DNA of 64,000 bases from Winogradskyella immobilis (lineage in GTDB: Bacteria; Bacteroidota; Bacteroidia; Flavobacteriales; Flavobacteriaceae), in the NCBI RefSeq assembly GCF_021887715.1, contig NZ_JAIQXX010000001.1, positions 124,001-188,000 on the forward strand, read 5' to 3'. Both the position numbers and the translations under genes were made by a program. Position 1 is the stretch's first letter. Each line of letters starts with the position of its first letter. The notes under the pieces are model-generated. The model was not told the DNA's origin, did no database searches, and saw only the letters and a program-made list of their open reading frames with translations. Below are positions 42,101-63,533 of this stretch, one piece after another.

Positions 42101-43008
42101 CCACTAACTTCTTCTACAATTAACTCTGGTTCTTTTTCTATCTCTATAATTTCTCTAGAGCTAAAACTGTAAAATAAAACAGCTAATAATGGCAATACAA
42201 GCAAGCTTGTAATCCAAGTTTTTGTTTTTGATGTTGTTGTTTTCATAACTGTAAATCGTTTTTTGATGGATGAATAATTTATGGCATTAGCTAACTGATA
42301 ATTCTCATTTTGTGATGAAAATGTTAGTAATATATTTTGATAATTAGTGGCTTCAATACCTTTATTTAATACGGCTTGGTCTGCTAAAAACTCGTGATTC
42401 AATTTTATATTCTTCTTATATAAATAAGCCAAAGGATGAAACCAAAAAATCACTTGAAATAACTCAATAAAAAGCACATCGATGCTGTGTTTTTGTTTGG
42501 CATGAGTTTCTTCATGGAGTATTACCGCTTTTGGCAATGACTTGTTTTCAAAAGTCGATTTATTAAAAAAGATATAGTTGAAAAACGTGTGCGGATTTAT
42601 GGCTTTTTTTAGTAGAACATAGGTAAAAGACCACTGTTTAATTTTTTCATTTTGCCTAATAGTAAAGAACAAAGTTCCTAAGTTTTTTAGAAAACGTAAT
42701 CCAAAAATAACCACTCCAATTATATAAATCGTCCACAATATTCTATCTAAAGTAAAAAACGGAGTTTCCTCTATAATAGTTTCTTGTATTAGCGGAAGTG
42801 TATATGATGAAAACTCAAAACTATCGTCTATTGGGGCAACATATACATATTCTGTAAGACGCAATAAAGGAATAATTATAGCTGCTAATATTGAGGTAAT
42901 TAAATAAAACCGCTTAAATGTATGCATCTGTTCACGTTCTAAAACAAAAACGTAGATAAGCCAGAAGATGATTAATATGGCCGTTAGTTTTAAGATGTAT
43001 AAACCCAT
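39175..43008 (-). CDS. very large M56 (BlaR1-like) metalloprotease with an internal CHU_C-like domain
   Basis: 1277 residues; ordinary BlaR1-type proteins have 500-600. Residues 1-285 are the M56 core: four membrane segments, zinc motif HEETH (165-169) and ligand region NHEFLADQAV. About 990 residues follow outside the membrane. They hold two copies of a YYYxENG...FYNKxGKxV unit (near 805 and 905), two KGGPN tails, and at about 1055-1140 a segment that matches the gliding-motility-type C-terminal (CHU_C, T9SS type B) domain: FRVYNKWGALIYSKENY, NNNWDG and KAGTYYYVFDH. That domain normally ends a protein; here about 135 more residues follow. It lies 55 bases after its BlaI repressor gene. Confidence 0.85.
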   Translation of the reverse strand: MGLYILKLTAILIIFWLIYVFVLEREQMHTFKRFYLITSILAAIIIPLLRLTEYVYVAPIDDSFEFSSYTLPLIQETIIEETPFFTLDRILWTIYIIGVVIFGLRFLKNLGTLFFTIRQNEKIKQWSFTYVLLKKAINPHTFFNYIFFNKSTFENKSLPKAVILHEETHAKQKHSIDVLFIELFQVIFWFHPLAYLYKKNIKLNHEFLADQAVLNKGIEATNYQNILLTFSSQNENYQLANAINYSSIKKRFTVMKTTTSKTKTWITSLLVLPLLAVLFYSFSSREIIEIEKEPELIVEEVSGPNTVLSDSVDLNKIAEINYYVKNNFNVTDENGNSVIKKFYDLTEQLKKEKLYVAPIPFERKKLTPKTLNDFKNEAIYVLKINDRVINKNELNNYSASDFTTYSLTPISELAKMQQSYVCHLVREEAFLSNIEDNISHYQNIYTHYEEERSTFKNKNDSASLHKFVTTYDYLKNLYDRFTPELISRYELSAPTVIDKDIIKSVYDEILDTSLNTPTLYIDEFDNLFLNNKPTSLKTIKDDFNALTNSKASGLNLETKDLVSETFVNQIWKAIGSNLKGIALRDAKVFVEDYPGKDLIPSILINGTPCQQCTLPIEVVKQLELTSKSGNPVTSFSAKTPGHPTQTIIGNTLNNNIKSYLNDHPEAKSIQLLNIKVKGNEKISPALITITQEKATAKQIAEYNTWAKKVNEGLKAPEDSPKKLNTMIKSKDLKKYNHIYSIMTAEQKKNAEPFPNIPPPQPPARPKVIEVKENKKTKKKANETPEIEEVKLQDGIEHGPIEIKGKDHYYYKENGEIKFYNKYGKVVSTNTLFPSTEAAKKFVKKYEKEIIKTHQIYVKANPKSINKGKIEGSDKEIEIYEIPSDLAGYIEVNGEQYYYTKENGKKTYYNKFGKAVDITKIKKASGNKTSKGGPNADPIEIVFIDKKPEKLIKEGSVDYKIRQLILRASKNQTQPLIYMLNNKVSDITSIENYLKNNQEANVNFKQGDKNTLYFYDKRISKMSREALQKVYSQLFKTHTQPGNVVYAWKLSEAEKSKNCLQIPTSFLIQNNNTFKIKCIDEFSKNKFRVYNKWGALIYSKENYNNNWDGTVDESFAVKGTNKIKAGTYYYVFDHSKLEKQMAGPLLINTKKSDAVEIKKVNSSKKGKGGPNPINQQASINYTKGINTKNSEIKGKSIKDILREVAMKERLKRLKNIYDYVPAEKSKVSKEQIAKSLKALNDYATTNTFEKVINLDSKEKLIMKTHLEIINEYAATNSL

Positions 43009-48675: not shown

Positions 48676-51051
48676 ATGGTGGACTTAAACGATAATTTAG
48701 AATCTCCTTTTTTTCTAAAGTTGAGCTTTAATAAGTATCTCAATCAGTTTGAAAAATTAATACAATCTGATAATGAAATAGTTAGGGTTAATGCGCGCCG
48801 TAAGTTAGATATTGCAAAGCAAAACCCAATACTTAGAGATGGGTTTAGTGATTTATCATATTTAAAAACCTATAAAGAAGAGATACAAGAAATTCTTCAA
48901 GATGTTTTTAATCCACTATTAACACTTAATGAAATTAAGACAGCTTCGGCTCCTTTTCATCAGGTTATTTTTAATTCTACCGAACGTTTTGATAATATTA
49001 TAAATGTAGCTGGAAAAGATTTTGAGCTCGAAATAAAAAACATGCCAAAAGATGATATGTACATTATTATGTGTACGATTATTCTTAGCAGATGTTATGG
49101 TTATAATATTAATATAAAACGACCATTCTTTTACGAAATACCAGATGCTAAAGGTATAATGCATTACTATAAAATTCTACTTAATGCAGATTTTATAGAA
49201 ATAATCCCTAAAGAAGGAACTCCTAAAATAACAGAAGAAGATTTTGATACGCTTTTAGATAATTTTGAAAACATTGAACTTTGGAAAGAAAAGTTCCCTC
49301 AAAACAGTTACATAGTTAAGGGATTTGTAATTTCTAATATTTTTGATGTTACAGACGATCAATCCATATCAAATGTTAAGTCTACACTTATTGGTGAAGA
49401 AAAAAGAAATGATGAAAGTTTTATGGAAGATTTCCATGAAATTTTCAGATCTCTATTAGATTTAAAAGATATTAAAGTAGGCTTTTCTATATATAATAAA
49501 GAAGAAGATACTTTTGAGCGTGTTTATGGTGCAGGGATGAATAGCTATTTACTAAATCAATTAGATGCTAATCGTTGTACAGGCGCATTATGTGGAAGAT
49601 CTTATAATACATTGTTAAAGGAAAAGAAGTTCTATACTGTATCTGACGTAGATAAGTATTATAAGATTTCTAAAGGTAAAGCACCTCAGTATAAAACATT
49701 GCAAGATCAAAATATAAAAAGTGCCATTTTAGCACCAATAGCTAATGATGAAGGCTTAATGGGGATTTTAGAAATAGTATCTCATGAGCCTAAAGTACTA
49801 AATAGTATTAACGCCAATAAGTTGGTTGATGTAATGCCTTTTATTGTATCTGCGGTAGAACGTTCTAAAAACGAAGAAGTCAACCTTATTGAAGCGATTA
49901 TACAAAAAGAATGTACATCGATTCATCCAAGTGTACATTGGAAGTTCGAAAAAGAAGCTCGTAATTTCATTAAAGATCAATTAAAAGGTCAAAAACCTAG
50001 TTTTAATAAAATAGCATTTGACGATGTGTATCCGTTATACGGGCAGATAGATATTAAAGGATCTTCTAATGCTAGAAATTGGGCAACACAACAAGATATA
50101 AAAACACAATTAACTGCTGCAAAAGATATTTTAGAAGAAGTTAATCAGGTACAACAATTGCCAATTTATGAGCAATATATATATCAAATCGATGAGTACT
50201 TAAACGAAATTGATTTACATTTTCAGGTAGATAGCGAACAACAAATCTCTCTCTTTTTTAATAATGATATTCATCCTATTTTAAGACATATTGGTAAATC
50301 TAATATCATGGCTTCTGAAATAGCTATTTATTTTGAAAATATTCACACTAAGGTAAATGCAGTCTATCATCATAGAAAAAAATACGACGATACTATTGCA
50401 TATATAAATAAAGAAATGGCTTCGCTTTTAGATAAAAAGCAGCAAGATGCACAATTAATGTATCCGCATTACTTTGAACGTTATAAAACGGATGGTGTAG
50501 AACACAATATGTATGTTGGTGAGTCTATTACTAAGGAAGAAAGTTTTAATTTAATGTACCTTTATAATTTAAGACTTTGGCAATTGCAAGTTATGTGCGA
50601 GATGGAGAATGCCTATTATAATATGCGTTCTAATTTCCCTGTAGCATTAGATGTAGCTTCAATGATATTAGTGTTTAATCAACCATTATCTGTTAGTTTT
50701 AGAATGGACGAGAAACAGTTTGATGTTGATGGTACATATAATGCGCGTTACGAAATTGTGAAAAAACGTGTAGATAAAGCCTACATAAAAGGGACAACCG
50801 AACGTGTTACTCAAAAAGGGAAAATAAGTATTATCTATTCTCAGAAAGAAGATGAGAAAGAATATATAAGATATATTAAGTTTTTACAATCTAAGCACTT
50901 ATTAGATACAGATGTAGAAATAGTAGAGCTACAAGATTTACAGGCGGTAACAGGACTTAAAGCATTGCGAGTAAGTGTGCTTTATCATAGAGATGATAAT
51001 GATAAAGAATTCTATACTTATGATGATTTAATGAAAGAGATTAATGCTTAA
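48676..51051 (+). CDS. large GAF-domain protein of unknown function
   Basis: About 791 residues from the ATG at 48676 (MVDLNDNLESPFFLKLSFNK). The middle (about 245-395) is a GAF domain: EIFRSLLDLKDIKVGFSIYN, later LKEKKFYTVSDVDKYYKISK and AILAPIANDEGLMGILEIVS. The 240 residues before it and about 390 after it are mostly helical and without a domain I recognise; no kinase, cyclase or DNA-binding motif is seen. It lacks signal peptide and membrane segments. It is convergent with the HD/Pycsar-effector-like gene, three bases apart. A cytoplasmic sensor role is inferred from the GAF domain alone. Confidence 0.8.
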   Translation: MVDLNDNLESPFFLKLSFNKYLNQFEKLIQSDNEIVRVNARRKLDIAKQNPILRDGFSDLSYLKTYKEEIQEILQDVFNPLLTLNEIKTASAPFHQVIFNSTERFDNIINVAGKDFELEIKNMPKDDMYIIMCTIILSRCYGYNINIKRPFFYEIPDAKGIMHYYKILLNADFIEIIPKEGTPKITEEDFDTLLDNFENIELWKEKFPQNSYIVKGFVISNIFDVTDDQSISNVKSTLIGEEKRNDESFMEDFHEIFRSLLDLKDIKVGFSIYNKEEDTFERVYGAGMNSYLLNQLDANRCTGALCGRSYNTLLKEKKFYTVSDVDKYYKISKGKAPQYKTLQDQNIKSAILAPIANDEGLMGILEIVSHEPKVLNSINANKLVDVMPFIVSAVERSKNEEVNLIEAIIQKECTSIHPSVHWKFEKEARNFIKDQLKGQKPSFNKIAFDDVYPLYGQIDIKGSSNARNWATQQDIKTQLTAAKDILEEVNQVQQLPIYEQYIYQIDEYLNEIDLHFQVDSEQQISLFFNNDIHPILRHIGKSNIMASEIAIYFENIHTKVNAVYHHRKKYDDTIAYINKEMASLLDKKQQDAQLMYPHYFERYKTDGVEHNMYVGESITKEESFNLMYLYNLRLWQLQVMCEMENAYYNMRSNFPVALDVASMILVFNQPLSVSFRMDEKQFDVDGTYNARYEIVKKRVDKAYIKGTTERVTQKGKISIIYSQKEDEKEYIRYIKFLQSKHLLDTDVEIVELQDLQAVTGLKALRVSVLYHRDDNDKEFYTYDDLMKEINA

Positions 51052-51054
51052 GAT

Positions 51055-52254
51055 TTAAACGGCACCTGAGAACTGAAATGCAATAGCAAAAGCAGCAACA
51101 CTAACAATTATACCTACAATAAATACAGTGTAGGTTATTCTAAGAATATTATATTTTCGGTTTAATACTAGTCCTAAAAAGTATAAATCTTTTTTCATAG
51201 AAGAATAGAGATAGTCCTTGTCTTGCATCATTTCTCCCATAGCCCATTCAAATTCATCTAATTTCATTTTGTGGAAATTTCCAAAGAATAATAAATTCAC
51301 TTTTTTATTGGCAACATCTTCTTTAGTAAATTTTCCGCTAGTAACGTTAGGTCGTGTTGCTAAAACAGATAAAATCATAGATGCTACTGTAAACAATACA
51401 AAAATAACAGTAGGCCAAATTAAGTATGTATTAGAAGCATTATCTAATTTAGAAACTAAATTAGAGAGAACTAAAGATACAATAATAGCATTAACCGAAA
51501 GTAAAATATTGGCCTTTGTATCAGCAATGTCACTCAGTGTAATATGGTTTTTTAGAGTGACTCTAAACATGGTTTCTATACCACGTTCTGGTAAACCAAG
51601 CTTGTTTTTCTTAAAAGTTAGTTCTTCTTTTTTTTGAGTTAGTTTCTTTTTATCGTCTTTAGTTTTCTTTTCTAATTTTATTAATTGCGATAAATTTTTG
51701 CCTTTGGTTTTGTCCCAAATAGAAGAAGCCGCATCCGAGTAAAATCGATGCTTAGTAGCTAAAAAGTCAATATTTTCATTCAACCAATCAGATTCAGATA
51801 GTTTTCGTTTGCAGGTCAATTCCCATTCTTTCCTTAAAAGATCTGAGATTTCAAAATAATTTTTACTGCCAATATGAGAACAATCGGCATCTTTGATAAT
51901 CTTTTCTAATAGATCTGCTGGAGAATGATGTATTTCAGTAGCTAAAATTATTTTAGAAACCATTTTAATACCATCAGCATTATAATTATGTGTATTTAAA
52001 AATGCTTCAGCTATAGCAATACTAGCTTTTTCATGTTTATCTATAGTTTTAGTATATCCAGTATCATGAAACCAAGCCGCAAGTATTAAATATTCCTTGT
52101 CTTTATCATCAATATTAGACAGTTCAGCAAGCTCTATTGATTTAGAAACTACACGTTGTGTATGCGGTAAATTATGATATATAAATGGAGTGTCTAATTC
52201 GTCATTTAAAAGACTGACGACATGTTTCTCTGCTTTTGATATAATGTTTTCCAT
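51055..52254 (-). CDS. HD phosphohydrolase fused to a Pycsar-effector-type transmembrane domain
   Basis: 399 residues. Residues 20-185 are an HD domain: His31 in LPHTQRVV, His63-Asp64 in AAWFHDTGYT, later ATEIHHSP (His109/110) and an acidic IIKDADCSH (Asp122/124), so the metal site looks intact. After a lysine-rich linker (185-217) comes the domain known from Pycsar effectors (PycTM): RGIETMFRVTLKNHITLSDI, ADTKANILLSVNAIIVSLVL and two more membrane segments (278-298, 372-394). PycTM proteins answer cCMP or cUMP by damaging the membrane. No pyrimidine cyclase gene stands near, so here the HD part may itself act on a nucleotide. Confidence 0.85.
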   Translation of the reverse strand: MENIISKAEKHVVSLLNDELDTPFIYHNLPHTQRVVSKSIELAELSNIDDKDKEYLILAAWFHDTGYTKTIDKHEKASIAIAEAFLNTHNYNADGIKMVSKIILATEIHHSPADLLEKIIKDADCSHIGSKNYFEISDLLRKEWELTCKRKLSESDWLNENIDFLATKHRFYSDAASSIWDKTKGKNLSQLIKLEKKTKDDKKKLTQKKEELTFKKNKLGLPERGIETMFRVTLKNHITLSDIADTKANILLSVNAIIVSLVLSNLVSKLDNASNTYLIWPTVIFVLFTVASMILSVLATRPNVTSGKFTKEDVANKKVNLLFFGNFHKMKLDEFEWAMGEMMQDKDYLYSSMKKDLYFLGLVLNRKYNILRITYTVFIVGIIVSVAAFAIAFQFSGAV

Positions 52255-52424
52255 AAAAAAAATAATAGACTAATTTAAGAATAATTTATTACCTAATCAG
52301 TCGGTAATGCAGTAACTTAGCTAACAATTTGTTTTGATGGAATTTATAAGAAGGTTTTTCGACAAAATTCAGGTCACAACACTTAAAAAAATGACTAAAC
52401 TTTATGCTAAATTGGAAACATATC

Positions 52425-52856
52425 ATGGATTTTACGGTAAACGGTAATCCAAAACCAGATAGAAGAGTAGAAAAATCTGAAGTAGAATGGAAGAATCAAT
52501 TAACACCAGAACAATATAGAATAACAAGATTAAAAGGAACGGAGGCACCACATTCAGGAGCATTATGTAGCACACATGATGCAGGTATATATAGTTGTAT
52601 TTGCTGTGATACAAAACTCTTTGATTCTACAATAAAATACGAAAGTAAATCAGGTTGGCCTAGTTTTACACAACCCATAAAAGAGAATGCCATTAAATAT
52701 AAAAAAGATACCTCATATGGGATGATACGCGTTGAGGTGATGTGTAATACTTGTGACGCTCATTTAGGACATATTTTTCCGGACGGACCAGAACCAAGTG
52801 GTCTGCGTTATTGTGTAAATTCAGAGTCTATTAAAATTGAAAAAATAAATGACTAA
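52425..52856 (+). CDS. msrB: peptide-methionine (R)-S-oxide reductase MsrB
   Basis: 143 residues from the ATG at 52425 (MDFTVNGNPKPDRRVEKSEV); the frame also opens 21 bases earlier. Two zinc CxxC pairs (CICC and CNTC), the GWPSFTQPI loop, HLGHIFPDGPEPSGLRYCVNS with the catalytic Cys (RYCVNS). It repairs R-form methionine sulfoxide with thioredoxin as reductant. There is no signal peptide. It overlaps msrA by eight bases. Confidence 0.95.
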   Translation: MDFTVNGNPKPDRRVEKSEVEWKNQLTPEQYRITRLKGTEAPHSGALCSTHDAGIYSCICCDTKLFDSTIKYESKSGWPSFTQPIKENAIKYKKDTSYGMIRVEVMCNTCDAHLGHIFPDGPEPSGLRYCVNSESIKIEKIND

Positions 52857-53391
52857 AAATATTCAAATAGCAACAGTTGGTGGAGGTTGTTTTTGGTGCA
52901 CAGAAGCGGTCTTTTTAGAGGTTAATGGAGTAGAGAAAGTAATTTCAGGATATTCAGGAGGAAATGTTCCTGGGCATCCAACATATCGTGAGGTTTGTTC
53001 AGGCTTAACTGGGCATGCGGAGGTAATACAAATTACATTTGATGCGGATATTATTTCTTATGAAGACATTCTTATCATTTTTATGACAACACACGATCCT
53101 ACAACATTAAATCGTCAAGGTGCGGATAGAGGTACGCAATATCGTTCAGTCATTTTTTATCATAATGATGGTCAGAAAAATATTGCTGAGATTGTAGTAA
53201 ATGAATTAAGCTCTCATTTTGAAAATAAAATAGTTACTGAAGTTAGTGCTTTAGATGTGTTTTATGAAGCAGAGAAAGAGCATCATAATTACTATAATCA
53301 AAACCAAACTCAAGGTTATTGTAGTTTTGTAATTACGCCAAAACTGCAAAAATTACGAAAGTTGCATGCTGATAAACTAAAAACGTCTTAA
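52849..53391 (+). CDS. msrA: peptide-methionine (S)-S-oxide reductase MsrA
   Basis: 180 residues. The active site GGGCFWCTEAVF, the substrate loop YSGGNVPGHPTYREVCSGLT, GHAEV with the catalytic Glu and HDPTTLNRQGADRGTQYRSV are all as expected. It repairs the S form of methionine sulfoxide, so with MsrB both forms are covered. It starts within msrB and ends 15 bases before selO: one operon. Confidence 0.96.
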   Translation: MTKNIQIATVGGGCFWCTEAVFLEVNGVEKVISGYSGGNVPGHPTYREVCSGLTGHAEVIQITFDADIISYEDILIIFMTTHDPTTLNRQGADRGTQYRSVIFYHNDGQKNIAEIVVNELSSHFENKIVTEVSALDVFYEAEKEHHNYYNQNQTQGYCSFVITPKLQKLRKLHADKLKTS

Positions 53392-53406
53392 GCAAAAAAT
53401 GACAAG

Positions 53407-54969
53407 ATGCAATTAAATATCAGTGATACTTTTAATAAAGAACTGCCAGCAGATCCTGTTATGGAAAATACACGGAGAAAGGTTTTTGAGGCAACACATT
53501 CTTATGTAACTCCTCAAATACCACTAGATCCAAAGATTGTTCATGTATCAAAAGACATGCTAAACGACATAGGTTTAGATGAAAAAAGCATGACGTCTGA
53601 AGATTTTTTTAATATATTTTCTGGTAAAAAGGTATACCCGCAAACTAAACCCTATGCTATGGCTTATGCAGGTCATCAATTTGGTAATTGGGCAGGGCAA
53701 TTGGGAGACGGAAGAGCTATAAATCTATTTGAGGTTAGTCATAACAAAAAACGTTGGGCATTACAATTAAAAGGAGCAGGAGCAACACCGTATTCAAGAC
53801 AGGGAGATGGTTTGGCAGTACTAAGATCTTCGATTAGAGAATATTTATGCAGTGAAGCTATGCATCATTTAGGCGTACCAACAACTCGCGCATTAAGTTT
53901 AATGTTATCTGGTAATAAAGTACTTAGAGATATCCTTTATGATGGTAATGCTAATTATGAAAAAGGTGCAATAGTTACACGCTTAGCTCCGAGTTTTATA
54001 CGTTTTGGAAATTTCGAATTATTTGCAGCTCGTAAAGAGCTAAAAAATTTAAAAGTATTAACAGATTATACAATTAAACATTTCTACCCTGAATTGGGTA
54101 AGCCTTCAAAAGCTACTTATATCGCTTTTTTTAAAACGGTTTCGGAACGTACTTTAAAAATGATTGTAGATTGGCAACGTGTAGGTTTTGTGCATGGAGT
54201 AATGAATACCGATAATATGTCTATTCTAGGTTTAACCATAGATTATGGGCCATACGGTTGGTTAGAAGGTTTTGATTTTGGTTGGACGCCAAATACTACG
54301 GATGCACAAAATAAAAGATACAGATATGGTAATCAACCTAATATTGGATTATGGAATTTATACCAATTGGCAAATGCATTGTATCCATTAATTGAAGATA
54401 CAACTCCTCTAGAAGATATATTAAACACATATAAAACAAATTTTGATATAGAATCGCTACAAATGATGCGTTCTAAATTAGGGTTAGAGTTAAAAGAGAA
54501 TTCCGATAAGCAACTGATTTCAGATTTAGAAGATTGTCTTTTACTTTTAGAAACCGATATGACTATCTTTTTTAGATTATTGTCTAACTACAAAAAAGGG
54601 AATTCAGAAAAAGGGATTGAATGTATAAAAGATGCATTTTATAAGCCCGAAGAATTTTCAGAAGTCATACAAGAAAAATGGAAAGGTTGGTTTAGTGCTT
54701 ACGACTCAAGATTAGGGAAAGAAACAATTTTAGATGAAGAGCGTTTACAAAAAATGAATGCTGTAAACCCTAAATATGTTCTTAGAAATTATATGGCTCA
54801 GTTGGCTATAGATAAAGCAGACGAAGAAGATTATAGCTTAATAGAAACGTTTTTTAATATGTTACAAAACCCATATAAGGAACAACCAGAATATCAACAT
54901 TGGTTTGCAAAACGACCAGATTGGGCAAGGCATAAGGTAGGCTGTTCAATGCTATCGTGTAGTTCTTAA
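53407..54969 (+). CDS. selO: protein adenylyltransferase SelO (YdiU)
   Basis: 520 residues. The pseudokinase-fold AMPylator SelO is shown by YAGHQFGNWAGQLGDGRAIN, LKGAGATPYSRQGDGLAVLR, SIREYLCSEAMHHLGVPTTR, and the active-site MNTDNMSILGLTIDYGPYGW with Asn and Asp for metal binding. The C-terminus is ...GCSMLSCSS, the conserved tail with a redox-active Cys (Sec in animals). SelO is known to transfer AMP to proteins of redox metabolism. Its place right behind msrB-msrA fits a role in oxidative stress. Confidence 0.94.
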   Translation: MQLNISDTFNKELPADPVMENTRRKVFEATHSYVTPQIPLDPKIVHVSKDMLNDIGLDEKSMTSEDFFNIFSGKKVYPQTKPYAMAYAGHQFGNWAGQLGDGRAINLFEVSHNKKRWALQLKGAGATPYSRQGDGLAVLRSSIREYLCSEAMHHLGVPTTRALSLMLSGNKVLRDILYDGNANYEKGAIVTRLAPSFIRFGNFELFAARKELKNLKVLTDYTIKHFYPELGKPSKATYIAFFKTVSERTLKMIVDWQRVGFVHGVMNTDNMSILGLTIDYGPYGWLEGFDFGWTPNTTDAQNKRYRYGNQPNIGLWNLYQLANALYPLIEDTTPLEDILNTYKTNFDIESLQMMRSKLGLELKENSDKQLISDLEDCLLLLETDMTIFFRLLSNYKKGNSEKGIECIKDAFYKPEEFSEVIQEKWKGWFSAYDSRLGKETILDEERLQKMNAVNPKYVLRNYMAQLAIDKADEEDYSLIETFFNMLQNPYKEQPEYQHWFAKRPDWARHKVGCSMLSCSS

Positions 54970-55001
54970 AGTTTTGTTTAAATCGCTATATGAATTGAAG
55001 G

Positions 55002-55126
55002 AATTATAATGAGAAAGCGGAAAACAAAATATAGATACAGCTTGGTTTTGTCCAGAAGTATTAGAATTAGCTACAAGTATAAAAAATAGAGTAGCCTTTT
55101 GGTGAGAAGTTAAAATTGAAAAATAG
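55002..55126 (+). pseudogene. remnant of a DUF427 gene
   Basis: Between selO and the next gene two frames together spell YNEKAENKI, then (after a shift at about 55032) DTAWFCPEVLELATSIKNRV, then AFW, a TGA stop (55103), and EVKIEK with a final TAG (55124). This follows the DUF427 ending (AAWYYPxPxxAAxxIKxxVAFWKxVKxE). Only the last 40-45 residues are left, with one frameshift and one internal stop. No start or N-terminal half is found. It is thus a broken gene inside the redox operon. Confidence 0.6.
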
Positions 55127-55649
55127 AATAGATAAAATAGCATTAGGAGGTGGTTGTCATTGGTGCACTGAGGCAATCTTTCAATCATTAAAAGGTGTTG
55201 AGTTTGTAGAACAAGGTTATGTAGCCTCAATAGACAAAAACAATACATTTTCAGAAGCGGTTATTGTGTATTTTAACGCGCAAATGATTACATTGCAGAT
55301 GTTAATAGAAATTCATTTACACACGCATAAAAGTACCAGTAATCATTCAATGAGAGCTAAGTACCGTTCAGCAGTTTATACGTTTTCGTTAGAACAAGAA
55401 CAAGAATCAAAATTAGTAATAAATGATTTTCAAAATAAATTTGAAAATAAATTAATAACACAAGTAATACCGTTTTCGGAATTTAAAGCCTCTAGAGAAG
55501 CCATTCAAAATTATTATCAAAAAAATCCAAACAAACCATTTTGTGAGACATTTATTAATCCAAAACTTCGATTTTTGATAGATAAATACTCAATTGCGCT
55601 TAATAAGGAAAAAGTAGCGCATTTAAATGATCAACATATCAACATATGA
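55116..55649 (+). CDS. divergent MsrA-like protein (GCHWC type)
   Basis: 177 residues from a TTG start inside the DUF427 remnant. [20 protein letters not shown] keeps the catalytic Cys, but the usual Phe before Trp is His. Compared with the MsrA at 52849 the substrate loop (GNVPGHPTYREVCSGLTG) is missing about 11 residues, and the HDPTTLNRQGxDxGxQYRS stretch is reduced to [15 protein letters not shown]; a Glu in the position of GHAE's Glu seems kept (FSEAVIV). The ending [11 protein letters not shown] matches MsrA's YCSFVITPKL. It is probably a paralogue with changed substrate. It overlaps the next gene by four bases (ATGA). Confidence 0.78.
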
Positions 55650-56871: not shown

Positions 56872-58041
56872 TTGCAAACTTTAATTACTCAACAGACATT
56901 AAAAGATCGATTTTTAGCGGTTAGATATACAACAGAAACTATTTGTAAATCCTTAGAAAGAGATGATTATTCGGTACAACCAGAAGCATCAGTATCTCCG
57001 CCTAAATGGCACCTAGGACATACAACTTGGTTTTTTGAACAATTTGTATTGTCACAATTTAAACCAGGTTATAAAAATTTCCATAAAGATTTTTCCTATT
57101 GTTTTAATAGTTATTATAATAATGTTGGTAGTCGTATACTAAGAGTTAATCGAAGTAATATGACGCGTCCAACAGTTGACGAAATATATAATTATAGAAG
57201 CTATGTCAGTTCTCATCTGGCTGAATTTTTAGAAACTGAAATTTCTGAAGAGATTAAAGGTTTAGTAGAAATGGGACTGCAGCATGAAGAGCAACACCAA
57301 GAGTTACTAGTTTATGATATAAAATATATTTTCGGACATCAACCTTTATTTCCTGTATTAGACACAGAAATTCAGTTAAAGTCAGAAGAAGATGATATAG
57401 AATTTATTTCAGTTAAAGAAGGTATTTATGAGATAGGTCATAAATGTAATGAAACATTCTGTTTTGATAATGAGTTAGGAGTACATAAAGTTTACCTTAA
57501 TGATTATAAAATTGCAAATCGACTAGTTACAAATGCTGAATATATTGAGTTTATTGAAGCTGGAGGTTATAGTAATTTTAACTATTGGCATGCAGATGGC
57601 TGGACACACATTAATGAAAATAATATTACCTCACCAATGTATTGGCATAAGCAAGATGGTAAATGGATGTATTATACCTTAAAAGGACTTAAAGAAATAG
57701 ATGCCAATTTACCTGTTAACCATGTTAGCTTTTATGAAGCATGGGCATATGCAGAATGGAAAGATTTGCGTCTACCAACAGAATTTGAATGGGAAATCGC
57801 TTCAAGTCAACTAAATTATGGTCAGCTATGGGAGTGGACAAATAGTGCTTACTTACCATATCCAAAATATGCCAAAGCTGATGGAGCTATTGGAGAATAT
57901 AACGGTAAATTTATGGTTAATACAATGGTATTACGAGGATCTTGTTTAGCTACAGCATCTAATCATAGTAGACCTACATATAGAAACTTTTTTACTCCAG
58001 AAAGTCAGTGGCAATTCTCGGGTATTAGATTGGCTAAATAA
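56872..58041 (+). CDS. egtB: EgtB-type sulfoxide synthase (ergothioneine biosynthesis)
   Basis: 389 residues from a TTG start two bases after the hydrolase-OsmC gene. The N-terminal DinB-like part has WHLGHTTWFFEQF (His50) and the iron motif HxxxHxE in LQHEEQHQELL (His138, His142, Glu144); the C-terminal FGE-like domain shows VNHVSFYEAWAYAEW, RLPTEFEWE, LWEWTNSAY, LRGSC and SGIRLAK. It joins the sulfur of cysteine or gamma-glutamylcysteine to trimethylhistidine in an oxygen-dependent step. The neighbour EgtD makes trimethylhistidine. Which thiol it takes cannot be read from the sequence. Confidence 0.92.
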   Translation: MQTLITQQTLKDRFLAVRYTTETICKSLERDDYSVQPEASVSPPKWHLGHTTWFFEQFVLSQFKPGYKNFHKDFSYCFNSYYNNVGSRILRVNRSNMTRPTVDEIYNYRSYVSSHLAEFLETEISEEIKGLVEMGLQHEEQHQELLVYDIKYIFGHQPLFPVLDTEIQLKSEEDDIEFISVKEGIYEIGHKCNETFCFDNELGVHKVYLNDYKIANRLVTNAEYIEFIEAGGYSNFNYWHADGWTHINENNITSPMYWHKQDGKWMYYTLKGLKEIDANLPVNHVSFYEAWAYAEWKDLRLPTEFEWEIASSQLNYGQLWEWTNSAYLPYPKYAKADGAIGEYNGKFMVNTMVLRGSCLATASNHSRPTYRNFFTPESQWQFSGIRLAK

Positions 58042-58044
58042 TAT

Positions 58045-58983
58045 ATGGATTGCAGCTTTGCAGAAGATGTGCGTTCTGGGTTAACTGCTGAAAAAAAATA
58101 CTTATTATCAAAGTACTTTTACGACGATAATGGGAGTCGTATTTTTCAGGAGATTATGAATATGCCTGAGTATTACCTTACAGATGCTGAATTTGAAATT
58201 CTATCCATACAAGCTAAACAAATTATAGAAGCATTAGACTTTTCTAGACCATTTAATATTGTAGAACTTGGTGCTGGCGATGGTTTTAAAACATTTAAAC
58301 TTTTAGAGTATTTAGTAAAAGAACGTATCGAAGTAAATTATGTGCCTATTGACATTTCTCAAGAAGCCATGGATATGTTAATAGCTCAACTAAAAAAAAG
58401 ACTTCCAAGTCTTAATGTTATCCCAAAAATTGGCGACTATTTCGAGATACTAAAAGCATTTAAAAAAGATAATCACCCAAGTTTGTTATTGTTTTTAGGT
58501 GCCAATATTGGTAACTATTCAGATAAAAATGCAATAGAACTTTTAAAGTTATTTAACGATAACATGAAAAAAGGGGATAAACTTTTGATAGGTATAGACT
58601 TAAAGAAAAATCCAATAACTATTCATAATGCTTATTTAGATGTTCATGGCATAACAAGACGTTTTAATTTAAATTTGTTATTAAGAATTAATAGAGAATT
58701 AGGAGCTAACTTTAATATAAATAATTTCGATTTTTATTGCTATTATAATCCAGACAATGGAGAACTAAATAGTTATATAGTAAGTTTAAAACAGCAGCAA
58801 GTTGATATTAAAAAGATAGGTCTCTCTGTTCATTTTAATTATAACGAACTTATTTGGACAGAACTTTCTAAGAAATATGATTTTAACGAAATAAATAATT
58901 TAGCCTCAGAATCTAAGTTTTCTATTGTTCAGAATTTTTTAGATACTAAGCATTACTTCACAGACAGTCTTTGGAAAAAATAA
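58045..58983 (+). CDS. egtD: L-histidine N-alpha-methyltransferase EgtD
   Basis: 312 residues, three bases after egtB. SAM-binding VELGAGDGFKTFKLL, then YVPIDISQEAM, and LFLGANIGNYSDKNA are the EgtD signatures, with YYLTDAEFEIL near the N-terminus. It methylates histidine three times to hercynine, the substrate of EgtB. No egtA, egtC or egtE gene is in the window, so gamma-glutamylcysteine may not be used, or those genes lie elsewhere. Confidence 0.93.
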   Translation: MDCSFAEDVRSGLTAEKKYLLSKYFYDDNGSRIFQEIMNMPEYYLTDAEFEILSIQAKQIIEALDFSRPFNIVELGAGDGFKTFKLLEYLVKERIEVNYVPIDISQEAMDMLIAQLKKRLPSLNVIPKIGDYFEILKAFKKDNHPSLLLFLGANIGNYSDKNAIELLKLFNDNMKKGDKLLIGIDLKKNPITIHNAYLDVHGITRRFNLNLLLRINRELGANFNINNFDFYCYYNPDNGELNSYIVSLKQQQVDIKKIGLSVHFNYNELIWTELSKKYDFNEINNLASESKFSIVQNFLDTKHYFTDSLWKK

Positions 58984-59029: not shown

Positions 59030-62000
59030 ATGAAAAAGTATTATAAACCAATTGTTTTAGTGGCGTTAATATTTATAGTCACATCTTGTGCAACACTAAA
59101 AGTAAAAGTCAACGATTCTGCGGTTAAGAGCTATCCAGAAGAAAAAGAGTTAGTACATTCATTTTATCTTTTAGGAGATGCCGGAAACTCATCTATAGAG
59201 AATAGTACAAGTGCCATACAACAATTTAAGTCCGCATTAAGTAACGCTCCAAAACAAAGCACAGCTATTTTTTTAGGAGACAATATTTACGATAATGGTT
59301 TTCCAGAAAAGAACAACGAAGATAGAGCTCTAGCAGAGCACCGTCTTCAAGTACAAGTAGACGCGGTTAAGGATTTTAAAGGTAATACTATTTTCATTCC
59401 AGGAAATCACGATTGGTATAGTGGATTAGATGGTTTAAAACGTCAAGAAAAATTTGTTGAAGCAGCATTAGGAAAAAACACATTTTTACCAGAAAATGGT
59501 TGCCCAATTGAAAAGGTAGATATTAGTGATGATGTTGTTATGATAATAGTGGACTCCGAGTGGTATTTAGCAGATTGGAATAAGCATCCTAAAATTAATG
59601 ATGATTGTGAAATTATAACGCGAAATGGTTTTTTCGATGAGTTAGAAGGATTGATAAAAAAAGCTAGAGGAAAGACGACTCTGATAGCAATGCATCATCC
59701 AATGTTTTCTAATGGACCTCATGGAGGGCAATTTTCGTTTTCGCAACATATGACTCCTCTACCAGTTTTAGGAACTCTTAAAAATGTAATAAGAAAATCA
59801 GGTGGAGTTTCACCTCAAGATATACAGAATAAAATATATAATACATTTAAAAAACGTGTAATTACATTATCTCAAGAAAATGATAAGGTCATCTTTGTTT
59901 CGGGCCATGAACATAGTTTACAATATATCGTTCAAGATAATTTACCGCAAATTGTAAGTGGATCTGGCTCAAAAGAAAACCCTACAAAAATGACAGCTAA
60001 TGGGTTGTTTTTGGCAAGTCACCAAGGATATGCAAGATTAGATGTTTTCTCAGACGGATCATCTCATGTAAGATTTTATAATGCAGAAGATAAGAGTATT
60101 GTTTTTCAGACTCAAGTATTAAACCCTGATAAAGACATTACATCTACAAATTATAATTCATCGTTTGCGCCAACTAAAACGACATCGATTTATAGTGAAG
60201 AAGAAACGAGCAAAAGCAGATTCTACAAAAAACTTTGGGGTAAACGCTATAGAGAATATTTTAGCACAAATGTAGAAGTGCCTACGATAAGTTTAGATAC
60301 ACTATTTGGTGGTTTAAAACCTGTTAGAAAAGGAGGCGGTCATCAATCTAAATCTTTACGATTAGAAGATGCTAAAGGGCGAGAGTACGTAATGCGTGCC
60401 TTACGTAAAAACGCAGTACAATACCTTCAGGCAGTTGTATTTAAAGATCAATATATTGAAGGTCAGTTTAACAACACTTACACAGAAGGATTATTACTAG
60501 ATGTTTTTACGGGCTCGCATCCATATGCACCATTGGCAGTTGGTAGATTAGCAGATGCTGCAGGCGTATACCACACAAACCCTGTTTTGTATTATGTGCC
60601 TAAACAAAATGCATTAGGAGAATTTAATGAAGATTTTGGAGATGAATTGTATATGCTCGAAGAACGAGCAGCGGATAATCATGGAGACAAAGCAAGCTTT
60701 GGGTTTTCTAATGAGCTTATAAGTACTAATGACATGTTAAAGAAGCTTCAAAAAAATGAAGATCATGTACTAGATGAAGTCTCATATATACGTGCGCGTT
60801 TATTTGATATGCTTATTGGCGATTGGGATAGACATCAAGATCAATGGCGTTGGGCAATATTTAAAGAAGATGGTAAAACAATATATAGACCAGTACCAAG
60901 AGACAGAGATCAAGCATTTTCAGTTATGTCCGATGGTGCATTGTTGAGTTTTGCTACCACAATAATTCCAGATATTAGATTACTTAGATCTTATAAAGAA
61001 GATATTAAAAGTGTTAAATGGTTTAATTTAGAGCCTTATCCATTAGACATTGCTTTAATAAATAAGTCAGATCAAGGTATATGGAATGATCAGGTAAAAC
61101 GCATTATAGATAATGTAACGGATGAAGTTATTGATGAAGCATTTGCAAATATGCCAAAGGAGGTTAATGATGAAACTATTGGCGAAATAAAAAGAAAATT
61201 AAAAGGAAGACGTTCAAACCTTCAAAAAATTTCAGACTCTTATTATAACCATATAAATAAATATGCCATCATAAAAGGAACAAATAAAGATGACATATTT
61301 GATGTTGAGCGTTTGCCAAATGGTAAAACTAGAGTGTTAGCATACCGAAATATAAAAGGAGAAAAAGGCGAATTGTTTTTTGATAGAACCTTTATAAAAG
61401 ATCAAACTAAAGAAATATGGATTTATGCATTAGATGATAAAGATATTTTTAATGTAAAAGGAGATGGAGACAAGGTAATTCGATTACGATTAATAGGAGG
61501 GCAAAATAAAGATACTTATAATATTGTAAACGGAAAACGCGTAAAACTCTATGATTATAAATCTAAGGAAAGTAAGTTTACAACCAATAAAGGGATAAAA
61601 AAGTTGACTGATGATTATGAGGTTAACACCTATGATTATACTAAATTTAAAAACAACTCAAATCAGTTTATACCAACTATTGGAGCCAATCCAGATGATG
61701 GATTTAGATTAGGTTTTGTAAATACGTACACCGTATCCACTTACAATTTTCAGCGTAATCCATTTATTTCTAAACACACGTTGTCTGGAGCATATTATTT
61801 TGCTACAAGCGGTTATGATTTTGCACTTAATAGTGAGTTTTCTAGAATTAAAGGAAATTGGAGTTTAGGTGTTAAAGTCGCTTATACAAGTCCTAATTTT
61901 AGCAGAAACTTTTTTGGTTTAGGTAATAGTACACCTAATTTTGAACCCGATGACGTTGTTAATTTAGATTTTAATCGTGTTAGGATTAGAAATTTTAATG

Positions 62001-62728
62001 TATCTCCAGCATTGATTTGGAGAGGACGATCAGGAGCTGCATTTAAAGTAGGTGCTAGTTATGAATCTATTGAAATAGAAAATACACAAGGCCGATTTAT
62101 AGAAACAGCAAGTATGTTACCAGCAAGAATCTTTGATGGACAAGATTTCTTAGGAGTTAATGCAATATATTCATATAGAAATAAGGATAACGAAGCCTTT
62201 CCTACGTTAGGAATGGAATTTAATTTAGAAGCAGGTTATAAAGCAAATATAGACGAGTCTAATAGTTACGGCTATGTTATACCTTCGCTTGGTTTCGATT
62301 ACAAGTTAATACCTAGTGGTCAATTGGTATTAGCAACAAAAGTTAAAGGTCACATTAATATAGGAGACGATTTTGAGTTTTATCAAGCAGCTTCTATTGG
62401 CGCTAATAACGGTTTGCGTGGTTATAGAAATGAACGTTTTACAGGTAAAAGAGCATTTTATCAAACTACAGATGTCCGTTTAAATCTAAGGAAAACTAAA
62501 ACAGGAATATTACCTTTAAACATTGGTGTTTATGGAGGTTTTGATTACGGGCGTGTATGGATCGATGATGAGTTTGTAGCCAACCCACTTTTTAATTCTG
62601 ATACTTGGAACACATCTGTCGGCGGTGGAATTTTTATCAATGCAGCAAATAAAATAACAGGAAATATCTCAGCATTTAGTAGTGATGACGAATTACGATT
62701 AGCCTTTGCTTTAGGATTTGGGTTCTAG
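59030..62728 (+). CDS. lipoprotein fusing metallophosphoesterase, CotH-kinase-like segment and Omp85-type barrel
   Basis: 1232 residues; lipobox TSC near residue 20. About 40-360 is a calcineurin-like phosphoesterase with all motifs: LLGDAGN, FLGDNIYDNG, IPGNHDWYSG, AMHHPMFSNG and SGHEHSLQY. About 430-640 resembles a CotH-type atypical kinase: GGGHQSKSLRLEDAKGREYV, then the catalytic-loop-like GDWDRHQDQWRW (Asp598-Trp608) and YRPVPRDRDQAF (Asp625, Asp627), close to CotH's WDxHxxN...W...PxDxDxxF. From about 880 to the end is an outer-membrane barrel with the Omp85 loop motif GLRGYRNERFTG and a terminal Phe (ALGFGF). The two enzyme domains would thus be tied to the outer membrane. Only the kinase part is a tentative call. 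Confidence 0.82.
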   Translation: MKKYYKPIVLVALIFIVTSCATLKVKVNDSAVKSYPEEKELVHSFYLLGDAGNSSIENSTSAIQQFKSALSNAPKQSTAIFLGDNIYDNGFPEKNNEDRALAEHRLQVQVDAVKDFKGNTIFIPGNHDWYSGLDGLKRQEKFVEAALGKNTFLPENGCPIEKVDISDDVVMIIVDSEWYLADWNKHPKINDDCEIITRNGFFDELEGLIKKARGKTTLIAMHHPMFSNGPHGGQFSFSQHMTPLPVLGTLKNVIRKSGGVSPQDIQNKIYNTFKKRVITLSQENDKVIFVSGHEHSLQYIVQDNLPQIVSGSGSKENPTKMTANGLFLASHQGYARLDVFSDGSSHVRFYNAEDKSIVFQTQVLNPDKDITSTNYNSSFAPTKTTSIYSEEETSKSRFYKKLWGKRYREYFSTNVEVPTISLDTLFGGLKPVRKGGGHQSKSLRLEDAKGREYVMRALRKNAVQYLQAVVFKDQYIEGQFNNTYTEGLLLDVFTGSHPYAPLAVGRLADAAGVYHTNPVLYYVPKQNALGEFNEDFGDELYMLEERAADNHGDKASFGFSNELISTNDMLKKLQKNEDHVLDEVSYIRARLFDMLIGDWDRHQDQWRWAIFKEDGKTIYRPVPRDRDQAFSVMSDGALLSFATTIIPDIRLLRSYKEDIKSVKWFNLEPYPLDIALINKSDQGIWNDQVKRIIDNVTDEVIDEAFANMPKEVNDETIGEIKRKLKGRRSNLQKISDSYYNHINKYAIIKGTNKDDIFDVERLPNGKTRVLAYRNIKGEKGELFFDRTFIKDQTKEIWIYALDDKDIFNVKGDGDKVIRLRLIGGQNKDTYNIVNGKRVKLYDYKSKESKFTTNKGIKKLTDDYEVNTYDYTKFKNNSNQFIPTIGANPDDGFRLGFVNTYTVSTYNFQRNPFISKHTLSGAYYFATSGYDFALNSEFSRIKGNWSLGVKVAYTSPNFSRNFFGLGNSTPNFEPDDVVNLDFNRVRIRNFNVSPALIWRGRSGAAFKVGASYESIEIENTQGRFIETASMLPARIFDGQDFLGVNAIYSYRNKDNEAFPTLGMEFNLEAGYKANIDESNSYGYVIPSLGFDYKLIPSGQLVLATKVKGHINIGDDFEFYQAASIGANNGLRGYRNERFTGKRAFYQTTDVRLNLRKTKTGILPLNIGVYGGFDYGRVWIDDEFVANPLFNSDTWNTSVGGGIFINAANKITGNISAFSSDDELRLAFALGFGF

Positions 62729-62729
62729 T

Positions 62730-63533
62730 TTATTTTAATATAAAACTATAAAGATTTCCGCCACCATGTTTGGTTTTTTCATCAGCAATATAGACTTCCG
62801 TATTGTTTTTAAAACAAATACTTTCTTTTTGAGATGAGTGCTCGAAAGATAGTTTTTCAATACTTCCAGAGAAAAAATTATCATTTTTAAAATCACGTAA
62901 TACCCAGACTTTATTATGGTTTAATAGCATAATAGTTTTACCATCATCACTTATATCAGCAGCAGTTATTAAACTTTTCTTTTCTTTAAAATTGTATTCC
63001 GATACAATTTCAGCAATATGTTCTCCAGCTTTATTCGGAATTTTTAAAACCTTGAATTTTTTAGATTCTTTACTAAATACATAAAAGTGATTTTGAAATA
63101 AAAAGAAGGCCTCAAAATCTTTTGGAGACATATTCTCAGGAAGTTTAAAATGGATAACTTTTGGTATAACAGATTGAGGTGATTGCTCTTCTAATACATT
63201 GATTTTTATAATTGAAAACTGTTTTCGTTTTTTAGCATTGTTTCCAAAATCACCAATATATAGATTGCCTTTAGTATCAGATGTTAAATCTTCCCAATCT
63301 TTATTTTTAGCATTAATATTAATTTCTTTTTCAATTTTACCAATGGTATTTAAACCATATAACGTTGATGCATTACCACTATCATTTAACATCCATATTA
63401 GATCTGAATTAGAAACCGTTTCAATCCCAGAAACTTCATTTAATGTTTTAGGTAAATCTGCTACAACTGTTAAATTTCCAGTGTCGCAACTCATGGTGGC
63501 CAATAATAAAATAGACAATAACCTGTACATCAT
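62730..63533 (-). CDS. beta-propeller lipoprotein (SdiA-regulated/NHL-like)
   Basis: 267 residues; lipobox TMSC (Cys16). Repeated blade-like strands: LNEVSGIETVSNSDLIWMLN, DSGNASTLYGLN, DLTSDTKGNLYIGDFGNN, ITAADISDDGKTIMLLNHNK and ESICFKNNTEVYIADE. This is the layout of SdiA-regulated-like propellers of Bacteroidota. No catalytic residues are evident. It is convergent with the phosphoesterase/barrel gene, one base apart. Confidence 0.78.
   Translation of the reverse strand: MMYRLLSILLLATMSCDTGNLTVVADLPKTLNEVSGIETVSNSDLIWMLNDSGNASTLYGLNTIGKIEKEININAKNKDWEDLTSDTKGNLYIGDFGNNAKKRKQFSIIKINVLEEQSPQSVIPKVIHFKLPENMSPKDFEAFFLFQNHFYVFSKESKKFKVLKIPNKAGEHIAEIVSEYNFKEKKSLITAADISDDGKTIMLLNHNKVWVLRDFKNDNFFSGSIEKLSFEHSSQKESICFKNNTEVYIADEKTKHGGGNLYSFILK

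Follow-up and report, generated by a model that had tools for sequence, protein, structure and literature searches.

Domain organization

The window analyzed here is a 64,000-nucleotide stretch of the Winogradskyella immobilis genome (assembly GCF_021887715.1, contig NZ_JAIQXX010000001.1, positions 124,001 to 188,000), and the gene of interest is located at 59030-62728 on the forward strand, as are all of its parts described below. The open reading frame (ORF) starts with ATG, is intact and encodes a protein of 1232 amino acids. The first codons (59030-59089) specify a putative lipoprotein signal peptide with the lipobox VTSC and Cys20, followed by a phosphatase, a kinase-fold domain and an Omp85-type barrel, in that order. 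An earlier note on this DNA had described a lipoprotein with phosphatase, kinase-like and barrel parts, and this three-part composition is confirmed: the motifs lie where the note placed them, and D598, D600, H602, D625 and D627 were numbered correctly. Specifically, residue 597 is the first of GDWDRHQDQWRW, residue 624 the first of RDRDQAF and residue 1128 the first of GLRGYRNERFTG, and the C-terminal residue is Phe. A scan for promoters and terminators gave counts no different from those in shuffled sequences.

Over the whole chain, the metallophosphoesterase family PF00149 is the sole Pfam family above cut-off (E 1.5e-6), and the middle part has no Pfam or NCBIfam family above cut-off in either the window protein or 45 diverse members of its family. 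The full chain (residues 33-1232) was modelled with AlphaFold2 from the window protein and 80 relatives, with a mean predicted local distance difference test score (pLDDT) of 82.4 and a predicted template modelling score (pTM) of 0.78. The same 81 sequences, in which the relatives are 58-74% identical to the window protein, form the closer alignment used here. The wider alignment has 55 more diverse rows, and locus L052 was left out of the 58-row alignment. Intact sites were counted over 156 rows, one of which is the window protein. This set excludes L001-L003, the duplicates L155-L157 and L004, and any ORF below 700 amino acids, so that the kinase genes that stand alone in L152 and L159 are not in it.

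The kinase-fold domain

Residues ~415-742 (60272-61255) form a domain with a predicted atypical kinase fold. A model of residues 385-870 (m3c85ebdba803; AlphaFold2, pLDDT 88.3, pTM 0.88) has two lobes, with a Gly-rich loop, a catalytic Asp and a metal Asp in order, and the succession of helix 583-596, the D600 loop, two strands and D625 is that of a kinase C-lobe. The claim of a kinase-like middle part had been staked beforehand on a fold comparison, which returned kinase-fold proteins throughout the rows shown: in two such comparisons of residues 385-870, the best 50 rows each are all kinases, kinase-fold proteins or complexes containing one. Foldseek places the Helicobacter pylori kinase CtkA first (E 2.5e-6), followed by PI4K-II alpha and HipT. 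VIA-align gives PI4K-II beta (9hhm_B; Z 15.5, 246 residues aligned, 4.0 Å), PI4K-II alpha (Z 15.2), CotH (5jda; Z 14.9, 254 residues aligned, 4.1 Å) and CtkA (3akk_D; Z 13.7), and then PI4K-III beta (12.0), HipA (11.5), Fam20A (10.7) and the Golgi casein kinase 4kqa (10.3), with rows within 1 Z counted as tied, so that PI4K-II and CotH are not separable. The middle part is, by its predicted structure, an atypical protein/lipid kinase fold at the superfamily level, and its sites suggest catalysis; a kinase fold by itself is no proof of activity.

The residues that would form the active site are well conserved. In the glycine-rich loop GGGHQS (residues 435-440, 60332-60349), G435 and G436 are each present in 52 of the 55 wider rows. 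The strand YVMRALRK (residues 453-460, 60386-60409) carries R456 at the likely place of the ATP-binding lysine (R in 53 rows, K in two) as well as K460 (52/55). Within the catalytic-loop motif D593...GDWDRHQDQW606 (60806-60847), D593 and D598 occur in all 55 rows, D600 in 51 and H602 in 52; at position 605, 51 rows have Gln and four have Asn. Two strands further on lies the likely metal-binding motif RDRDQAF (residues 624-630, 60899-60919), with D625 in 55 and D627 in 52 of the 55. D598, D600, H602, D625 and D627 are all invariant in the 81 closer rows, and the core of R/K456, D600 and D625 is intact in 150 of 156.

The earlier note had compared the motifs with those of CotH-type kinases. The kinase fold stands, but a specific assignment to CotH does not: PF08757 has no match in the W. 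immobilis genome (the control matched in 3 of 14 genomes) or in any of the 45 members, the window domain included, and the fold tie with PI4K-II removes any preference for CotH over other kinases. The HipA, PI3/PI4 kinase and Fam20 families of Pfam are likewise found neither in the window protein nor, at E 1, in the 45 members, although the filters of HMMER may hide very weak matches. A whole-protein sequence search of the PDB returned noise, the best three rows (E ~0.07) being HDAC6 chains aligned on a short DWDxH stretch. A middle-domain profile matches CtkA weakly (E 0.46, against 0.47 for an unrelated chain) and is a lead only, but it does align the catalytic loop with the CtkA sequence DRHNGNW.

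It may be that the domain is a lipid kinase that phosphorylates the head group of an outer-membrane lipid, with the phosphatase reversing the reaction. The PI4K-II scores, which lie ahead of that of HipA, and the position of the domain at the membrane face are in keeping with this, and an influence on the lipid composition of membranes is reported for the Omp85 enzyme PlpD in the part of the study drawn on here (PMC11116518). The CotH score is nevertheless tied with those of PI4K-II within the error of the tool, and the first Foldseek match is the kinase CtkA. A dedicated lipid kinase and phosphatase pair is, on balance, unlikely. The substrate could be a lipid, given the PI4K-II-like predicted fold and the membrane face, or a protein, given the likeness to CtkA, CotH, HipA and Fam20; the evidence settles on neither.

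The phosphatase domain

The first part of the protein (residues ~40-345, 59147-60064) was described in the earlier note as a metallophosphoesterase, which the PF00149 match bears out; the predicted fold refines this to a purple acid phosphatase. The best match is human TRAP (2bq8; Z 28.9, 270 residues aligned, 3.0 Å, 19% identity), and the nine best structural matches consist of eight purple acid phosphatases and GAP50. What we take to be the seven-ligand metal set of these enzymes (D/D/Y/N/H/H/H) is present in full as D50, D84, Y87, N126, H222, H293 and H295. All seven are invariant in the 81 closer rows, and the complete set is found in 127 of 136 phosphatase-bearing rows. By fold and ligands this part is a purple acid phosphatase, with predicted activity.

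The linker, the barrel and their topology

Between the kinase fold and the barrel lies an all-beta linker (residues ~745-870, 61262-61639, from the secondary structure of the models) with GxxxxDxF and GGxxxDTY repeats that look RTX-like by eye. Judged from secondary structure, residues 745-876 of the full-chain model have no helix-strand POTRA pattern. The remainder (residues ~877-1232, 61658-62725) is modelled as a 16-stranded barrel. Its likeness to Omp85 proteins is weak by sequence: the NCBIfam model Omp85_fam gives 2.2e-13, yet 50 bits against a cut-off of 200; PF03865 (ShlB) is below cut-off on the C-terminal part (E 0.009); and PF01103 matches three other genes in this genome but not the window gene. 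The predicted structure is clear, with TamA (4c00) at Z 24.7 over 291 residues (3.2 Å) and BamA rows at Z 22.4-24.3, and the earlier description of an Omp85-like barrel ending in Phe thus holds.

The motif GLRGYRNERFTG (62411-62446), of the RGY/RGF type, lies at position 1128 in loop 6, between model strands 11 and 12. In BamA and TamA, loop 6 enters the barrel from outside and the N-terminus is periplasmic. With loop 6 in this position and an Omp85 topology, the N-terminal phosphatase and kinase domains would face the periplasm. PlpD of Pseudomonas aeruginosa supports such a placement: in the part of the report drawn on here, this patatin-like Omp85 protein is a homodimer whose enzyme domain stays periplasmic (PMC11116518).

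The opposite arrangement, in which the barrel would export the N-terminal domains so that they scavenge nutrients from phosphate compounds outside the cell, would fit the calcium-repeat-like motifs seen by eye in the linker. Bacteroidota have many surface lipoproteins, and export of the enzyme domain through the barrel is said to have been proposed once for patatin-Omp85 proteins. However, no acidic signal for surface export is seen by eye after Cys20, a kinase would make little sense outside the cell, and the PlpD precedent points the other way. Surface exposure is very unlikely.

Family distribution and architectures

The spread of the family was searched in Bacteroidota genomes and in plasmids. 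At E 0.001 the protein is matched in 177 of 395 sampled Bacteroidota genomes, some of which match the phosphatase or another part only, and the kinase region is covered by a match in at least 129 of the 395; a phosphatase-only match, G081, is not counted among the kinase-barrel genomes. In a collection of named genomes, at least 589 stretches matched the search pattern, 580 of them encoding a relative. Of these, the best 80 were kept, and their record titles name either genera that we take to be flavobacterial or unplaced Bacteroidota. The plasmid search found five relatives, all from Bacteroidota, and the annotation under the match, where present, is hypothetical protein.

The search for the same domain order across the phylum, suggested in the earlier note, thus yields a widespread family with two main architectures: phosphatase-kinase-barrel proteins of ~1200-1400 amino acids, and kinase-barrel proteins of ~840-930 amino acids that start at window-protein residue ~370-400. 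A strict lipobox pattern picks out 17 (~23 by eye) of the 37 phosphatase-bearing rows left untrimmed at the start and none of the 19 phosphatase-less rows. A tree was built from 55 kinase domains, of which 36 have a fused phosphatase and 19 lack one (L052, L154 and the L152 barrel being left out); on it, the phosphatase label changes at least five times, against a mean of 16.2 in shuffles. Gains or losses of the phosphatase have therefore occurred repeatedly, while the kinase-barrel core stayed constant. Seventeen loci with phosphatase-less relatives (L135-L139 and L142-L153, of which L137 begins at a contig end) include only one, L152, with a separate phosphatase gene beside the relative.

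This locus, from genome G055, has adjacent co-directional genes for a kinase-part lipoprotein (519 amino acids), a phosphatase lipoprotein (403 amino acids; PF00149, 2.3e-8) and a barrel (388 amino acids; PF01103, 7.3e-13). The same three-gene order occurs in L159, from a second species of the same genus by label (G251; barrel PF01103, 1.9e-11). Both separate barrels are above the PF01103 cut-off. Because separate adjacent genes encode the three parts, these loci independently support the idea that the parts act together, and in the domain-fusion sense the split arrangement is the strongest sign of one function for all three. Genes that by eye resemble a TolC-type channel and an ABC exporter are located beside the split genes (L152:21-4661, L159:9497-14149).

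Both sites are intact in 127 of the 156 rows. In 16 the phosphatase is absent and the kinase intact, and in seven the phosphatase is altered (one by a truncated N-terminus) and the kinase intact; four phosphatase-less rows have an altered kinase, and in two rows both sites are altered. A second copy in the W. immobilis genome (L155, G000:C11:231250-234684), 48% identical to the window protein, belongs to the decayed kind: its phosphatase motifs read NTG, GNIVS, GHHEW and GHDKN, a broken site, while the kinase core (GDWDRH, PRDRDQAF) is intact. The same combination is found in L158 and L161, from two other genomes of the family. Since copies with an altered phosphatase site and copies with an altered kinase site both exist, the two sites are maintained separately, a pattern that fits opposing roles as writer and eraser, perhaps on a shared substrate. 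The earlier note had suggested that this substrate may be the cargo or lipid handled by the barrel.

A different interpretation is that the enzyme-like domains are pseudo-enzymes that bind only, forming a scaffold for a barrel that works as an insertase or exporter like BamA or TamA. The closeness of the barrel to TamA and BamA could be cited for this, as could the altered kinase in six of 156 rows and the altered or truncated phosphatase in nine of 136. However, the catalytic residues are kept in the great majority of rows across wide divergence, no POTRA pattern is seen in the model, and in L152/L159 the barrel is a separate 388-residue protein without the enzymes. A pure scaffold is improbable.

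Possible pseudokinases, with N, E or G in place of D600, are encoded in L135, L136, L141, L163, L164 and L150:7542-10130. The copies in L163 and L164 are on plasmids, and the altered second copy in L150 is in tandem with an intact one.

Genomic neighborhood

The most consistent neighbor is a gene for a protein with a phosphohydrolase-like HD domain (PF01966, 9.1e-7) and a PycTM membrane domain (PF18967, 2e-37), located in the window at 51055-52254 on the reverse strand. Whole-genome counts of co-location rest on the matches listed (~150 per query) and on genomes related by descent, and the random expectations given with them assume a 4.2-Mb genome and ignore operon structure. In at least 115 genomes listing both a kinase-barrel gene and a relative of the (HD-)PycTM gene, the two are within 15 kb of each other in 102, from 21 families (~1 expected), and within 6 kb in 88, from 20 families (~0.4 expected). 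Relatives of the linked protein occur in 163 of the 395 genomes and are mostly tied to the kinase-barrel gene. In some families, as in L123, only the PycTM part is present.

Among 155 locus rows, three of which represent the window gene (the window, L004 and L156) and two of which repeat other rows (L155 repeats L005 and L157 repeats L027), 109 have a relative of the HD-PycTM gene in the flank examined, in several orientations and in 45 cases at a distance of at most 400 bp; for the distant loci L115-L153, the count is 26 of 39. A functional link is argued from the persistence of the association over 21 families while order and orientation change.

The linked protein also matches the PycTM and 2TM effector models of PADLOC (best 2.6e-16), and residues 583-622 of the window protein weakly match the candidate defence family PDC-M03A (E 1.2e-4), with one model matching in 16 of the 45 members. 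No paper on PDC-M03A was found in the open-licence full text of PubMed Central. The kinase-barrel protein may have a role in defence, but its wide spread, mostly in one or two copies, argues against a mobile defence island.

Immediately downstream of the window gene, on the complementary strand (62730-63533), is a gene for a beta-propeller-like lipoprotein, a putative distant relative of the SdiA-regulated family. Of 151 loci, 93 have such a propeller or SdiA-regulated relative nearby, and in 62 the distance is at most 200 bp. It is downstream and convergent in 74 of 78 close loci and upstream and co-directional in 12 of 15 distant ones, and the close and distant propellers are related (hhalign probability 98.5). 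The window propeller protein has no Pfam family above cut-off; PF06977 reaches 3.1e-16 in L150, is below cut-off in the close locus L067, and is not listed for the window protein.

A third association, with PPK1, is restricted to part of the phylum. Of 84 genomes listing both genes, 23 (9 families, ~0.9 expected) have PPK1 at most 15 kb from the kinase-barrel gene, and for PPK1 and a PycTM relative at the same distance the count is 27 of 76 (11 families), among the matches listed. At least 22 genomes have a kinase-barrel gene with both PycTM and PPK1 within 15 kb, possibly at different copies, and in L138, L143 and L130, HD-PycTM, PPK1 and kinase-barrel genes occur in a row and in the same direction. 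As a general rule the PPK1 link was rejected, 61 of the 84 genomes having no listed PPK1 within 15 kb.

In the W. immobilis genome itself, PPK1 overlaps a short PycTM gene by about four bases, including the stop codon (C11:244009-246629, equivalent to L160:10010-12630). This pair lies ~9 kb after the second kinase-barrel copy, and a second PPK1 is on C26. Genes for SixA-like histidine phosphatases (PF00300 in L150, L150:12208-12699) are near the kinase-barrel gene in nine loci, often beside PPK1.

These arrangements could point to polyphosphate handling, in which PPK1 would make polyphosphate, HD-PycTM would sense or gate it, the kinase fold at the outer membrane would draw phosphate from it or bind its end, and the phosphatase would be a polyphosphatase. 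The PPK1 counts, the overlapping gene pair and the three-gene rows favor this model, and a polyphosphate donor would lift the problem of missing periplasmic ATP. It is unlikely, however: the 61 genomes above do not fit (unless a second, unlisted PPK1 was missed), PPK1 is present in 354 of the 395 genomes and must serve other needs, and polyphosphate beyond the inner membrane finds no support here.

Several other genes in the window deserve mention. A 791-residue protein with no Pfam family above cut-off (weak GAF) is encoded at 48676-51048 and has relatives in 47 loci, five of them distant. Between the HD-PycTM and kinase-barrel genes, MsrB, MsrA, SelO and a second MsrA-like gene form a row (52404-55649); SelO is an adenylylating enzyme. 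A pair of genes for an FGE-sulfatase/DinB protein and a histidine-specific methyltransferase (56872-58983) ends 46 bases before 59030 and presumably resembles a thiol-histidine pathway of the EgtB/EgtD type. Further away, on the complementary strand (39178-43008), a 1277-residue protein combines a C-terminal CHU_C type IX secretion domain with an M56 peptidase domain of the BlaR1 type, which is an odd pairing.

A model for function

With a probability of roughly 0.6, the window protein is a phosphotransfer enzyme that is anchored in the outer membrane and faces the periplasm, with catalysis and the direction of the reaction read from its fold and sites. The Omp85-type barrel would fix the chain in the outer membrane. 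On the periplasmic side, the kinase-fold domain, which belongs with the PI4K-II/CotH/HipA/Fam20 group and has D600 as its putative catalytic residue and D625/D627 as its putative metal ligands, would phosphorylate a substrate in the envelope, and the purple acid phosphatase at the N-terminus would dephosphorylate that substrate or a related one. The kinase would be the constant core and the phosphatase an optional opponent, whether fused, separate, decayed or absent. Leading candidates for the substrate are an outer-membrane lipid head group or an envelope protein, and for the donor ATP or polyphosphate; the linkage to PPK1 suggests polyphosphate, though most listed genomes have no PPK1 nearby. 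The protein would be one piece of a conserved module that includes (HD-)PycTM, the SdiA-regulated-like propeller lipoprotein and, in part of the phylum, PPK1, and it is probably part of a so far undescribed phosphate-based system of control in the cell envelope. The polyphosphate and lipid explanations are narrower versions of this same reading, and the odds of the readings do not add up to 1.

Several observations weigh against a periplasm-facing phosphotransfer enzyme of this kind. The phosphate donor is its weak point, as adenosine triphosphate (ATP) is scarce in the periplasm. None of the 45 diverse members matches a kinase model of Pfam or NCBIfam, and the loss of D600 in six of 156 rows implies a non-catalytic role within the family. 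R456 is at what is probably the place of the usual ATP-binding lysine, and Q605 is at the position of an Asn in CtkA, so the protein may use another donor or catalyze another reaction; some kinase-fold enzymes adenylylate or glutamylate instead. As for the module, the co-location counts come from related genomes, among the matches listed, and are not independent events; the PycTM query also counts relatives with the HD part alone or the PycTM part alone; the window gene's own HD-PycTM neighbor is 6.8 kb away, with seven genes between; and in the genomes of L152 and L159, the PycTM relative and PPK1 are on other contigs, not near the split genes.

The most elaborate version of the outer-membrane enzyme would be trans-envelope phosphate signaling, in which PPK1 polyphosphate and HD-PycTM feed or gate an outer-membrane kinase that uses polyphosphate as donor and marks lipids or proteins, with the phosphatase as eraser and the propeller as partner. 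This is quite improbable; if it holds, no reversible phosphorylation system of the outer membrane would have been known before it. The usual view is that Gram-negative bacteria have their protein and lipid kinases on the inner side of the inner membrane, where ATP is available, and we know of no other kinase built into an outer-membrane barrel. A conserved and widespread kinase fold in such a barrel, with a phosphatase on the same chain and in some genomes a link to polyphosphate synthesis, makes it directly testable whether and how bacteria phosphorylate the outer membrane. It also offers a first functional frame for an Omp85 subfamily listed since 2014 under another enzyme name, and for the HD-PycTM proteins that accompany it.

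Comparison with known systems

Among kinases, the CotH spore-coat proteins are alike in fold (Z 14.9 over 254 residues) but are separated from the window domain by the missing PF08757 match. CotH kinases also act outside the cytoplasm; to our knowledge, they have neither a barrel nor a phosphatase. PI4K-II, CtkA, HipA, Fam20A and the Golgi casein kinase (4kqa, which we take to be a Fam20 protein) share the fold at ~10-14% identity, and CtkA has a DRH-type catalytic loop as well, with Asn at the position of the window domain's Gln. We know of no PI4K-II, CtkA, HipA or Fam20 kinase that is barrel-bound. Purple acid phosphatases such as TRAP share the predicted fold and the seven ligands, including the Tyr, whereas the window domain is part of a bacterial outer-membrane lipoprotein and is fused to a kinase fold. 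The likeness to Pycsar systems lies in the linked gene, which shares the effector membrane domain PF18967; it differs in carrying an HD domain, the searches behind this comparison having covered PycTM and HD.

No paper on a kinase-Omp85 chain or on the gene module was found in the open-licence full text of PubMed Central, outside which lie most subscription journals and all preprints. The earlier note knew of no described function for such a three-part chain; a phosphoesterase-Omp85 fusion was listed in 2014, with no kinase mentioned (PMC4104836). PlpD offers one precedent, since there too an Omp85 barrel anchors an N-terminal enzyme; in the part of the report drawn on here, that enzyme is a single patatin-like lipid-cleaving domain in a homodimer, in contrast to the kinase and phosphatase of the window protein (PMC11116518).

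The closest relative is the Omp85 subfamily called 'Metallo' by Heinz and Lithgow, which, in the part of their survey used here, has a PF00149 domain N-terminal to an Omp85 barrel that lacks POTRA domains; the PF00149 part is called a metalloprotease domain there, and the subfamily is described as conserved at the genus level only (PMC4104836). The main text of that paper never uses the word 'kinase', and gene neighbors are not treated in the part used. From this description, the 'Metallo' proteins and the window family are probably the same. The protein described here is, in this comparison, a member of a known Omp85 subfamily with an unrecognized enzymatic core.

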